DNA of 64,000 nt from Sediminicoccus rosea (lineage in GTDB: Bacteria > Pseudomonadota > Alphaproteobacteria > Acetobacterales > Acetobacteraceae): positions 4,799,001-4,863,000 of the forward strand of contig NZ_CP137852.1 of the NCBI RefSeq assembly GCF_033547095.1, given 5' to 3'. The notes beneath the pieces were generated by a model, which saw nothing but the letters and a program-made list of their open reading frames with translations, made no database searches and was not told where the DNA came from. This document shows positions 15,478 to 64,000 of this stretch, piece by piece. Position numbers and translations under genes: made by a program. Within the stretch, counting starts at the first letter, position 1. Each line of letters begins with the position of its first letter.

Positions 15478-15594
15478 GGCGAGGCTTTAGCATGGCGGGC
15501 GGGCCGGTGCATCAGGGAGTTTGGGGCGGGCCCTCCCCGCTTGACCCGCGCCCCCCGTCCCGCCATCTCCATCCCGTCGCAGCGTCCGGAGCAT

Positions 15595-15704
15595 CCGGCC
15601 GCACAGCGGCCGGCGCGCCGCGCCCGCCCTCCCCGCCCGCCGCACCCCATGCGGCGCGAAGGCAAGGCGGCGGAGCCGCCGCCCGCCGTCTGAGGGCAGA
15701 TAAA
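15595..15704 (+). repeat. three-hairpin element, copy 1 (upstream of accD)
   Basis: Three consecutive hairpins: CCGGCCGC/GCGGCCGG at 15595-15613, CGCCGCA/TGCGGCG at 15638-15656 and GGCGGC-GGA-GCCGCC at 15666-15680. They are followed by TGAGGGCAGA at 15691-15700, just before the accD ATG at 15706. A second copy with the same plan lies at 63672-63752. Stem sequences differ but pairing, the GGA loop of the third hairpin and the TGAGGGCAGA tail are kept. Confidence 0.7.
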
Positions 15705-15705
15705 G

Positions 15706-16575
15706 ATGAACTGGATTTCCGAGTGGGCGCTGCCCAAGATCAAGACGCTCTTCGGCACCTCGCGCGAGATGCCGGACAATCTCTGGCACCAGTGCCCGAG
15801 CTGCCAGAAGATGATCTTCCAGACGGACCTGGAGAAGAACCTCCGCGTCTGCACCCATTGCGGCCACCACATGCGCCTCTCGGCCAAGCAGCGGCTCGAC
15901 GCCACGCTGGATGAGGGCTGGCAGAAGATCGAGCTGCCCAAGGCGCCGGCCGATCCGCTGCGCTTCCGCGACCAGCGCCGCTATTCCGAACGCCTGCGCG
16001 ATGCCCAGACCAAGTCCGGCATGGATGACGCGGTGGTGGTGGGCCATGGGCAGATCGAGGGCCAGCGCGCCGTCGTCGCCGTCTTCGAATTCGCCTTCAT
16101 GGGCGGCTCCATGGGCGCCGGCGTGGGCGAGGCCATCGTCACCGCCGCGCGGCTGGCCGTGCTGCAGGATGCGCCGCTGATCGTCTTCGCCAGCTCCGGC
16201 GGCGCACGCATGCAGGAGGGCGCCGTCAGCCTCATGCAGATGCCGCGCACCGTGATCGCAACGCAGATGGTGAAGGATGCGGGCCTGCCCTTCATCGTCG
16301 TGCTGTGCGACCCGACGACGGGCGGCGTCACCGCCAGCTTCGCCATGCTGGGCGACATCCAGATCGCCGAGCCGGGTGCCCTCATCGGCTTCGCCGGGGC
16401 GCGCGTGATCGAGCAGACGGTGCGCGAGAAGCTGCCCGAGGGCTTCCAGCGCGCCGAATACCTGCTGGAGCACGGCATCCTCGACATGGTGGTGAAGCGC
16501 GCCGAGATGCGCGAGACGCTGGCGCGCGTCATCCGCCTGCTGCGCGCCGCCGAGGAAGCGCCGGCCGCCGCATGA
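15706..16575 (+). CDS. accD: acetyl-CoA carboxylase carboxyltransferase subunit beta
   Basis: A 289-residue subunit. The N-terminal zinc ribbon is CPSC...CTHC (about residues 28-50), followed by the crotonase-fold carboxyltransferase domain with SSGGARMQEG and GVTASFAMLGD. With AccA it transfers the carboxyl group from biotin to acetyl-CoA, the first step of fatty acid synthesis. It overlaps folC by 4 bases, the accD-folC order common in proteobacteria. Its leader carries the three-hairpin element. Confidence 0.97.
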   Translation: MNWISEWALPKIKTLFGTSREMPDNLWHQCPSCQKMIFQTDLEKNLRVCTHCGHHMRLSAKQRLDATLDEGWQKIELPKAPADPLRFRDQRRYSERLRDAQTKSGMDDAVVVGHGQIEGQRAVVAVFEFAFMGGSMGAGVGEAIVTAARLAVLQDAPLIVFASSGGARMQEGAVSLMQMPRTVIATQMVKDAGLPFIVVLCDPTTGGVTASFAMLGDIQIAEPGALIGFAGARVIEQTVREKLPEGFQRAEYLLEHGILDMVVKRAEMRETLARVIRLLRAAEEAPAAA

Positions 16576-51355: not shown

Positions 51356-53065
<1,710 letters not shown>

Positions 53066-58277: not shown

Positions 58278-59357
58278 ATGGAGATCACCGTGAACCGTCG
58301 CTCCCTTCTCGCCCTGACCGCCGGCGCTGCCGCCACCCCCTTCCTGGCGCGCGAGGCCTTCGCCCAGGCCGCGACGATCACCGGCGCCGGCGCCACCTTC
58401 CCGCGCCCGCTCTATGAGCGCTGGTCGCAGGCCGCGCGCGAGCCGCTGGGCGTCACGCTGAACTACCAGTCCATCGGCTCGGGCGGCGGCATCAACCAGA
58501 TCACGGCCCGCACCGTGGATTTCGGCGCCTCCGACGCGCCGCTCAGCACGGCGCAGCTGACGGAGCGCAAGCTGATGCAGTTCCCCTCCGTGCTCGGCTC
58601 GGTGGTGCTCAGCGCCAACCTGCCCGGCGTGGCCGACAATGCGCTGCGCCTGACGCCCGAGATCATCGTGGACATCTTCATGGGCCGCGTGGCCCGCTGG
58701 AACGACCCCCGCCTGGTCGAGCTGAACCGCGACATCCGCCTGCCGAACCTGCCCGTCTCCCCCTGCTACCGCGCCGATGGCTCGGGCACGACCTGGGTCT
58801 TCACCACCTATCTCTCCCGCGTGTCGGATGCCTGGCGCACGGGTCCGGGTGCGGGCACGGCGATCAGCTGGCCCGCCGGCAACGGCGCGCGCGGCAATGA
58901 GGGCGTGTCCAACATCATCCGCAACACGCCGGGCGCCATCGGCTACATCGAGAATGCCTACGCCGTCGTGAACCGCATGACGACGACGCAGCTCCGCAAC
59001 AAGGGTGGCCGTTTCCTCGCGCCGGAAATGCCGGCCTTCCTGGCCGCCGCCGCCGCCGCCGACTGGACCGTGCCGAACTTCGCCGCCGACACGATCGACC
59101 TGGCCGATCCGGCCGCCTGGCCGATCACCAGCCCGACCTACATCCTGCTGCCGATCGACCCGCCGGCCGACAAGGTGGCGGCCAGCCGCAACACCATGCG
59201 CTTCTTCGACTGGGCCTTCCGCAATGGCGGCGACATCGCCCGCCGCCTGGAATACATCGCCCTGCCGACCGCGGCGCATGACCTGATCCGCGCCGCCTGG
59301 GCGCGCCAGGTGCGCGACCCGTCCGGTGCGGCGGTCTGGACTGGGGCCGCGGCCTGA
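58278..59357 (+). CDS. pstS: phosphate ABC transporter substrate-binding protein
   Basis: A 359-residue periplasmic protein with an N-terminal NRRSLLAL signal peptide of Tat-like form. The phosphate-binding region begins TGAGATFPRPLYERW, with SIGSGGGINQ, DFGASDAPL and YRADGSGTTWVF. It captures phosphate for PstCAB. First gene of the pst operon; a strong hairpin follows its stop. Confidence 0.96.
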   Translation: MEITVNRRSLLALTAGAAATPFLAREAFAQAATITGAGATFPRPLYERWSQAAREPLGVTLNYQSIGSGGGINQITARTVDFGASDAPLSTAQLTERKLMQFPSVLGSVVLSANLPGVADNALRLTPEIIVDIFMGRVARWNDPRLVELNRDIRLPNLPVSPCYRADGSGTTWVFTTYLSRVSDAWRTGPGAGTAISWPAGNGARGNEGVSNIIRNTPGAIGYIENAYAVVNRMTTTQLRNKGGRFLAPEMPAFLAAAAAADWTVPNFAADTIDLADPAAWPITSPTYILLPIDPPADKVAASRNTMRFFDWAFRNGGDIARRLEYIALPTAAHDLIRAAWARQVRDPSGAAVWTGAAA

Positions 59358-62902: not shown

Positions 62903-63619
62903 ATGCCCGAAGGCTTCCATGGCGGGGCCAAGCCCACCATCCTCGTCGTCGAGGATGAGGCCGCCCTGCTCGCCCTGCTGCGCTACAACCTCGAGCGCCA
63001 GGGCTTCCATGTGGAGGAGGCGACGGACGGGCAGGAGGCGCTGATCCGCATCGCGGAAGCCAAGCCCGACCTCGTCCTGCTCGACTGGATGCTGCCCGCC
63101 ATGTCCGGCATCGAGGTCTGCCGCCAGATCCGCCGCCGCCCCGCCACGCGTGACCTGCCGGTGATCATGGTCACCGCCCGCACCGAGGACCAGGACGCGG
63201 TGCGCGCGCTGGACACGGGCGCCGATGACTACATCGCCAAGCCCTTCGCGGTGGAGGCGCTGCTGGCCCGCATCCGCGCCCTGCTGCGCCGCTCGGCCGC
63301 CGTGCCGGCCAAGGGCAGCATCTCCTATCACGACCTGGCGATGGACCAGGACGCGCACCGGGTCACCCGCAATGGGCGCCCGCTGCACCTGGGGCCCACC
63401 GAATACCGGCTGCTGGAATTCTTCCTCTCCCACCCGCGCCGCGTCTTCACGCGCGAGCAGCTTCTGGACGCCGTCTGGGGCCGCGACATCCATGTGGAGC
63501 TGCGCACGGTGGACGTGCACATCCGCCGCCTCCGCAAGGCGATCAACGATGAGGGCGAGGTGGACCTGATCCGCACCGTCCGTTCGGCCGGCTACGCGCT
63601 GGACGCCGACGGCGGCTGA
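62903..63619 (+). CDS. phoB: phosphate regulon response regulator PhoB
   Basis: A 238-residue OmpR-type regulator. The receiver domain has ILVVEDEAAL, the phospho-Asp in VLLDWMLP and the Lys in DDYIAKPF. The C-terminal winged helix ends VDVHIRRLRKAI. AAGGAG lies 8 bases before the ATG at 62903. No phoR sensor gene is next to it, so the kinase lies elsewhere. Confidence 0.95.
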   Translation: MPEGFHGGAKPTILVVEDEAALLALLRYNLERQGFHVEEATDGQEALIRIAEAKPDLVLLDWMLPAMSGIEVCRQIRRRPATRDLPVIMVTARTEDQDAVRALDTGADDYIAKPFAVEALLARIRALLRRSAAVPAKGSISYHDLAMDQDAHRVTRNGRPLHLGPTEYRLLEFFLSHPRRVFTREQLLDAVWGRDIHVELRTVDVHIRRLRKAINDEGEVDLIRTVRSAGYALDADGG

Positions 63620-63671
63620 CCCGCCCGCCGGCAAGCGCCTCCATCGCAGCCCAGCCGTAGCTCCCGAGGAT

Positions 63672-63752
63672 CCGGCCGCACGTGCGGCCGGCGGAAAGCT
63701 TCAGCTTTCCGAAACCAAGCGCGCGGAGCGCGCGCCCGGCTTTTGAGGGCAG
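63672..63752 (+). repeat. three-hairpin element, copy 2 (after phoB)
   Basis: CCGGCCGCAC/GTGCGGCCGG (63672-63691), GGAAAGCT/AGCTTTCC (63693-63710) and GCGCGC-GGA-GCGCGC (63719-63733), followed by TGAGGGCAGA (63744-63753). Same order and tail as copy 1 at 15595-15704, with different stem 2 and stem 3 sequences. It lies between phoB and the convergent TPP-enzyme gene, and its tail runs up to that gene's stop. Confidence 0.7.
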
Positions 63753-63756
63753 AAAA

Positions 63757-64000
63757 TCAGATCACCAGTTCAATCAGGAAGGGCCCGGGGCGCGCGAAGC
63801 TCTGCGCCATCAGGTCGGCCACCTGATCCAGCGTGGTGGCCTGCGCCGCCTCCACGCCCATGGATTCCGCCAGCTTCACCCAGCCGATATCGGGGTTGCC
63901 GAGGTCCAGCATGTTCATCGCCGTCGGGCCCGGATTGGCGCCCACATTGCGGTATTCGCCGATCAGGATCTGGTACTTGCGGTTGGAGAGGATGATCGTC
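63757..64000 (-). CDS. TPP-dependent acetolactate synthase-like enzyme, C-terminal part
   Basis: Cut by the right edge. The visible 80 residues are the end of a large thiamine pyrophosphate enzyme: IILSNRKYQILIGEYRNVG, NPGPTAMNMLDLGNPDIGW and VKLAESMGVEAAQATTLDQV, then a closing ARPGPFLIELVI. This matches the C-terminal TPP-binding domain of acetolactate synthase or benzoylformate decarboxylase-like enzymes. Which one cannot be told from this part. Confidence 0.85.
   Translation of the reverse strand, partial: TIILSNRKYQILIGEYRNVGANPGPTAMNMLDLGNPDIGWVKLAESMGVEAAQATTLDQVADLMAQSFARPGPFLIELVI

Follow-up and report, generated by a model that had tools for sequence, protein, structure and literature searches.

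Does the three-hairpin sequence in front of accD in Sediminicoccus rosea act as a structured RNA, or is it one copy of a mobile repeat? The window, by which we mean the whole 64,000-nt stretch of NZ_CP137852.1 analysed here, holds two such sequences. The initial annotation had described stems that differ in sequence yet keep pairing, had taken this for selection on structure and had proposed a structured RNA, a REP-like mobile element or an mRNA stability signal. On re-reading the sequence we found both copies where the annotation had placed them, in the order and orientation described, with the CCGGCCGC first stem, the GGA loop and the TGAGGGCAGA tail. The best explanation, to which we give a probability of about 0.6, is a family of multi-copy GC-rich three-hairpin repeats, a non-autonomous MITE/BIME-like element.

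Two copies in the window and the family they belong to

The features of the two copies and their neighbours are as follows; gene calls come from a script that scores codon usage learnt from the window, and starts are approximate.

15591..15697, + strand: copy 1, type B element in the accD leader (alignment A3 row L002, genome BLASTN for the first hairpin, model matches)
15595..15613, + strand: copy 1 hairpin 1, CCGGCCGC, loop ACA, GCGGCCGG (sequence, fold)
15614..15658, + strand: copy 1 hairpin 2, outer arms CGCGCC (15614-15619) and GGCGCG (15653-15658) (family alignment, pair counts, sequence)
15638-15644 with 15650-15656, + strand: copy 1 hairpin 2, local stem of the initial annotation (sequence)
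15661..15687, + strand: copy 1 hairpin 3, outer GGC/GCC helix, internal loop and inner helix
15666-15680, + strand: copy 1 hairpin 3 inner helix, GGCGGC-GGA-GCCGCC
15691..15697, + strand: copy 1 conserved tail TGAGGGC, 8 nt upstream of the accD ATG (15706)
15706..16575, + strand: accD, acetyl-CoA carboxylase carboxyltransferase beta (Pfam Carboxyl_trans, Zn_ribbon_ACC)
62903..63619, + strand: phoB-like response regulator upstream of copy 2 (Pfam Response_reg, Trans_reg_C)
63668..63750, + strand: copy 2, type A element between the phoB-like gene and a convergent gene (alignment A2 row L003, BLASTN, model matches)
63672..63691, + strand: copy 2 hairpin 1, CCGGCCGCA/TGCGGCCGG (sequence, fold)
63692..63711, + strand: copy 2 hairpin 2, CGGAAAGC, loop TTCA, GCTTTCCG (sequence, fold, A2 pairing)
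63715..63739, + strand: copy 2 hairpin 3, outer CC/GG (sequence, fold)
63719-63733, + strand: copy 2 hairpin 3 inner helix, GCGCGC-GGA-GCGCGC
63744..63750, + strand: copy 2 tail TGAGGGC, 6 nt from the stop codon of the convergent gene
63757-63759: stop codon of the convergent gene, reading TCA on the + strand

The placement of copy 1 in the leader of accD was correct, and Pfam backs the gene assignment. Copy 2 had been described as lying after phoB: its first stem does begin 53 nt past the phoB-like stop in our gene calls, but the copy lies equally at the end of the convergent gene. Both copies fold better than their dinucleotide shuffles, with z-scores of -2.92 for copy 1 and -3.01 for copy 2 and with 0 and 1 of 200 shuffles, respectively, folding as well.

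The copies represent two subtypes. Type A (∼83 nt) has a short second hairpin, GGANCGC-TTCA-GCGNTCC, and type B (∼107 nt) a longer one. What stays constant is mostly unpaired sequence, namely GAAGCCAAG ahead of stem 3, CCCGGCGYYTGAGGGC behind it and the GGA loop. The outer GCC/GGC helix of hairpin 3 is backed by the accD copy, where the pair reads GGC/GCC. Some type A first stems read CGAGCC-GAATA-GGCGAG in the sequences and would hold a tandem G-A mismatch. At the accD leader of one relative (G019, copy L123) the loop of the first hairpin is swapped for an extra palindromic stretch and the stem still pairs.

We compared the sequences with known RNA families. When the whole window was searched against Rfam 15 at the gathering score the element was unmatched; the only hit was the 5_ureB small RNA (RF02514), a full-length match at 51507-51792 on the - strand with 106 bits. 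Other matches stayed below threshold: chance-level ones, among them IRES_Bip (15.5 of 40 bits) across the start of a copy in locus L014, and six weak ones to copy 2. A degenerate relative of the twister-sister ribozyme is suggested by one distant copy (L206, 1460-1546) that matches RF02681 over its full length with 29.4 bits (E 0.012 in 29.6 kb), but this lies below the gathering score of 34 and the family is absent among the matches listed for the window copy, five loci of the same genome and the other nine distant loci. Moreover GCGCUCAU of the model, which holds the cleavage step, reads GCGYYTGAG in the present family, and we regard a ribozyme origin as barely credible. An intrinsic terminator was likewise discarded: none of the 95 copies has a run of at least five T downstream of stem 3 on the element strand.

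The window copies have many relatives in the genome. With copy 2 as the query, BLASTN returned 52 matches from the own genome, many of which cover parts of the element and some of which are single hairpins. The covariance model R1, which covers the 3′ module with 41 positions and was built from 32 sequences, gave 95 matches at E up to 0.05, of which the weakest handful (truncated or E ≥ 1e-4) may be chance or decayed copies; since R1 includes the TGAGGGC tail, copies with decayed tails are missed. Coincidence of two copies is ruled out by the BLASTN and model matches across the genome, and the covariance-model search that the annotation had suggested returned neither two copies only nor stems without pairing, the results it had named as contrary to its reading. 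When neighbours at most 200 bp apart on one strand were grouped, the copies fell into 72 sites, of which 61 hold one copy and 11 an array of two to four; none of the 72 sites has a copy called within a gene. Tandem arrays at 4883327-4883725 and 4708052-4708449 both have periods of ∼119 bp, and those at 3258530-3258921 and 979409-979726 have periods of ∼117 and ∼94 bp.

Outside the own genome, which is counted in each of the following figures, R1 found the module in every one of the 21 genus genomes, at between 1 and 109 copies apiece. Within the family 43 of 249 genomes have matches, spread over 18 of 102 genera, and within the class 28 of 385 genomes, from 23 of 277 genera; copy counts for family and class are lower bounds and weak carriers may escape, because only 26 and 17 candidates were scored per genome. 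Exact-pattern matches in named records came from a Rubritepida, Neoroseomonas eburnea, Acetobacteraceae bacterium H6797 and Paramagnetospirillum caucaseum, in a search that may leave out records near the own genome. Plasmids and phages searched with copy 2 alone gave no match, nor did viral contigs searched with the exact pattern.

Pairing in the stems and what may maintain it

Pairing is kept throughout the family. In alignment A3 (type B) 98.3% of cells are paired and 12 of 23 pairs have changed on both sides, with 30 double-changed, 4 one-sided and 7 unpaired cells; none of 500 shuffles was as high and slid structures were at most 56.8% paired. Alignment A2 (type A) has 95.5% paired cells and double changes in 7 of 17 pairs, a number of pairs matched by 6 of 500 shuffles, and the module alignment A4 has 93.4% and 5 of 11 pairs, with 5 of 500 shuffles reaching 5 pairs. 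At the accD loci of relatives (12 leader copies and 3 neighbouring copies, in an alignment fitted to the model) 96.7% of cells are paired and 14 of 23 pairs carry double changes. The shuffle and slid-structure controls rule out chance or base composition. That the stems differ and still pair, as the annotation had it, therefore holds at the level of the family. The contrast it had quoted for stem 2 does not amount to column-for-column covariation: the CGCCGCA/TGCGGCG stem of copy 1 is local and overlaps the CGCGCC/GGCGCG arms shared by type B, and the two copies are of different subtypes.

The 6-bp stem 3 can be followed in 76 of the 95 copies, those with a module length of 41 or 42. Of its 456 cells 325 carry the reference pair; Watson-Crick pairs changed on both sides make up 107, mismatches 23 and wobbles a single one, and seven alleles account for 67 of the 76 copies; as the copies are related, the changes are not independent events.

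Two readings compete over what keeps the stems paired. In the first, the element is a functional cis-acting RNA, its hairpins and GAGGG tail forming a recruited translation or stability module whose pairing would be kept by selection on the RNA. The strong covariation in A3, A2, A4 and at the accD loci speaks for this reading, as does the fact that the unpaired linkers are the most constant parts. Against it, stem alleles jump, with the 107 double changes standing against a single wobble: point mutation followed by slow repair through selection would be expected to leave more intermediates, and module exchange or template switching fits better. Including the evidence on placement and turnover given below, we consider a functional RNA of this kind unlikely. 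The second reading places the covariation at the DNA level, through recombination between copies and template switching at palindromes, with no selection on the RNA. Besides the few stem 3 alleles and the near lack of wobbles, it is favoured by changes at single sites: positions 4969448 and 4939493 carry type A in one sister genome and type B in the other, and the second hairpin is altered at 3404216 between two relatives (G004 and G011) that have the majority of sites in common. Template switching at palindromes is described as a mechanism in the accessible part of PMC8794818. Such exchange creates pairing, but by itself it leaves unexplained the conservation of the linkers across families and the gene-edge rule described below. 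We regard it as a substantial possibility, somewhat short of even odds; it is compatible with a mobile MITE/BIME-like repeat and competes only on the cause of pairing.

Whole-allele changes, few wobbles and subtype swaps at one site mean that exchange or template switching could keep the pairing without selection on the RNA. As judged from these alignments selection on the RNA is not proven as the cause of the kept pairing, and the annotation's conclusion of selection on structure cannot be retained as it was worded, other readings accounting for paired stems too. Either way the stem alleles provide a clean test case for covariation from RNA selection versus DNA-level exchange, a question that bears on every RNA found by covariation.

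Placement at gene edges and turnover among relatives

Copies track gene ends and starts, a point the annotation had proposed to check, and they do so with one end. Of the 72 sites, 56 have a gene edge no more than 12 nt from the 3′ end (TGAGGGC), and 4 have one that close to the 5′ end, measured from the start of the first stem. That stem could be placed in 71 of 95 copies; for the others the 5′ distance was set to a fixed 45 nt. Uniform placement in the free space of each element gives 18.5 expected sites (sd 3.3) with a maximum of 32 in 20,000 trials, and random insertion does not explain the one-sided rule. Targeting of TNA, as found in TGA and TAA stops, is inadequate as well, since it would predict both ends equally.

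The downstream gene is codirectional at 23 sites, and at 16 of these the gap from tail to start is 6-8 nt, which favours a cis-acting role. At the other 49 sites the downstream gene points at the element, with its stop mostly 0-9 nt away; there the element is antisense in the reading of that gene, which argues against such a role. In element direction the upstream and downstream genes are (-,-) at 27, (+,-) at 22, (+,+) at 20 and (-,+) at 3 sites. Ordinary gaps of at least 20 nt in ∼190 kb of the own genome are codirectional in 60, convergent in 14 and divergent in 23 cases, so divergent gaps make up 3 of 72 element sites versus 23 of 97 ordinary gaps; this scarcity would also suit a cis-acting RNA.

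In relatives we collected 69 regex matches (mostly from the genus, a few from other genera), set aside 4 inside genes and regrouped the rest into 50 sites, 46 of them with both neighbours called. With arrays collapsed and the 5′ distance always taken as 45 nt, 27 of 46 sites have a gene edge at most 12 nt from the 3′ end and none has one so near the 5′ end. As 19 of the 46 sites disobey, the rule holds in relatives less strictly. It is obeyed in 22 of 34 stop contexts and in 5 of 12 start contexts, the latter figure counting against a translational module.

Before starts the GAGG of the tail sits at the Shine-Dalgarno position, and GAGG occurs within 20 nt upstream of 19 of 68 genes in the window. 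We infer that the tail may be used as a Shine-Dalgarno sequence; the GAGG in the tail of copy 1, by its position, is a possible candidate for accD. In the predicted fold of copy 1 this Shine-Dalgarno is paired with GCCCTC. Sequestration by GCCCTC was considered and rejected, as it comes from the fold of one copy and the partner is lost in some relatives as judged by eye; for a cis-acting RNA, too, a paired ribosome-binding site whose partner is not kept across all relatives is an adverse point.

The accD copy differs from the phoB copy in its persistence. Among the 18 genomes whose flank could be read, the model R2 detected an accD leader copy in 13, one of these being weak (E 0.0025), and in 5 it detected none; the contig of one further genome begins at the ATG and two genomes had no accD match. 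This copy was apparently inherited and not repeatedly inserted, and its retention is in keeping with a cis-acting function. The phoB copy is labile, being absent in G009 and reduced to the first hairpin in G019, which such a function would not lead one to expect. In G008 a copy separates the accD stop from the start of the following gene, which it precedes by 7 nt, and in G013 stop and start overlap as TGATG (both by eye).

Comparisons between sister genomes at ∼90% and ∼94% identity revealed copies present on one side, 4862710 in the own genome and 91430, 157814 and 58410 in G009, of which at least 91430 and 58410 are longer related forms. None of the empty sites in these comparisons had a clean insertion junction. 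The longer subtype (L160 and L162, on contig C9 of G009 at ∼58373-58522 and 91383-91501) has a fourth hairpin after GAGGGG (GCACGARGG...CCTTCGTGC), adjoins stop codons and is absent at the corresponding places of the own genome. Another palindromic repeat, with the tandem motif GGAGGCGTGAATC, lies on contig C1 of G011 near 1101832, 1133806 and 1207285 (L188, L189, L193), apparently directly after stops as judged by eye; at these places it is found in G011 and not in G004.

In sum we favour a passive mobile structured repeat of which one copy has turned into the accD leader. The family would have spread by transposition in trans. Copies in the genus may persist in untranslated mRNA flush with a gene edge, where they would do little harm, and before a start codon the element would bring its own Shine-Dalgarno-like GAGGG, which could aid persistence. 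In the mRNA the hairpins would form and act at most as generic structure, for example in 3′-end protection or insulation. The accD copy is probably old and would now give an untranslated leader and probably the ribosome-binding site. A more specific proposal is a ‘gene-boundary cassette’ specific in its orientation: an RNA module of three hairpins, derived from a transposon and placed or kept with TGAGGGC flush to the gene edge. It would replace the native ribosome-binding site before a gene and begin at the stop codon after one, a protein would read the conserved unpaired core across Alphaproteobacteria, and stems would be swapped as whole alleles; taken jointly, we think these propositions doubtful.

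Should the edge rule arise at insertion, it would point to a mobile element able to recognise gene boundaries or stop codons in one orientation. Should it instead reflect survival, the copies would form a natural series of mobile leaders, and a transposon relative may supply the ribosome-binding site of genes such as accD.

Transposon signatures and relation to known repeats

In genomes of three other alphaproteobacterial families (G046, G306, G531) the core lies inside an element of ∼146 nt whose ends, TAC[CT]AA...GGTA, are inverted repeats. Both ends were parsed in 11 distant copies (14 further matches had one end only). In 9 of the 11 the outer three bases read TNA and are identical on both sides; the tenth (L205) has TAA on both sides by eye, its right end being misparsed, and the eleventh (L220) has GAA and TAA. 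As the outer bases are identical and not complementary, they represent a target duplication, and together with the inverted-repeat ends this means that part of the superfamily consists of miniature transposons. The shared core suggests that the shorter form of the genus descends from such an element with terminal inverted repeats.

Copies of the genus showed neither a clear terminal inverted repeat nor a clear target duplication, filled and empty sites included. CCCTC, which would pair with the GAGGG tail, occurs in 7 of 67 of the 5′ flanks and in 0 of 65 control stretches, a weak trend. TNA stands at +2 of the 3′ flank in 46 of 138 distinct flanks from the own genome and relatives; the 5′ flank has no matching peak except at -20 (10 of 67), which we put down to the TGAGGGC tail of the unit before it where copies stand in tandem.

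Could a REP/BIME element mobilised by a RAYT (Y1 HUH) transposase account for these copies? They are palindromic and intergenic and form arrays at 11 of 72 sites. Against this, the Y1 search gave no match in 20 of the 21 genus genomes, the own one among them, whereas it was positive in 5 of 14 control genomes; it covered the Y1 type, and no transposase was tied to the element. The one positive genome of the genus, G016, has three matches, and R2 finds no accD leader copy there. TTGAT is the target of an IS200/IS605 element, and because the 3′ flank often reads R-TCA we considered an insertion of this type; it was dropped for want of a Y1 transposase.

A REP is defined, in the accessible text of PMC3733652, as a single palindrome of 20-40 bp with a GTAG/CGTC tag, and units of 83-107 nt with three hairpins fall outside this definition. 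This and the lack of a RAYT-type transposase in 20 of 21 genomes make a REP proper unlikely, and RAYT mobilisation appears highly improbable to us. Of the annotation's proposals the repeated structured element of REP/MITE-like habit thus stands and the REP itself does not.

Our literature search gave no description of the family for this clade, with CIR and RIME judged by their descriptions only, and the parts of the related repeat literature accessible to us contain no report of a one-sided gene-edge orientation rule. According to the same portion of PMC3733652, CGTC-tagged REPs are alphaproteobacterial palindromes without a dedicated transposase, as is the present family; they are reported missing from Acetobacteraceae, and unlike our element they are single stems of 8-9 bp with loops of 4-5 nt. 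The rhizobial RIME and A, B and C palindromes are mosaic intergenic repeats of Alphaproteobacteria (accessible part of PMC2573895) and resemble our family in this; the comparison is by description only, and identity with RIME is possible. The CcrM-associated CIR of Caulobacter (∼110 bp), as far as PMC2229807 could be consulted, is similar in size, clade, intergenic position and arms joined by a linker. It differs in its conserved GANTC sites: among the 71 copies whose first stem could be placed, GANTC occurs in 22. This is a distinction by description only that leaves identity with CIR possible. ERIC/IRU, RUP, YPAL/RU-2 and other bacterial MITE-like repeats are reviewed in PMC2229807. The terminal inverted repeats and target duplications of MITEs were not clearly seen in the genus; distant members of the present family possess both, the duplications being short. 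Like ERIC/IRU, RUP and YPAL/RU-2 as described there, the family is ∼100-170 bp long, non-coding and foldable as RNA, with many intergenic copies, and it differs from them in its three separate hairpins, its GC-richness and the one end that lies mostly flush with gene edges.
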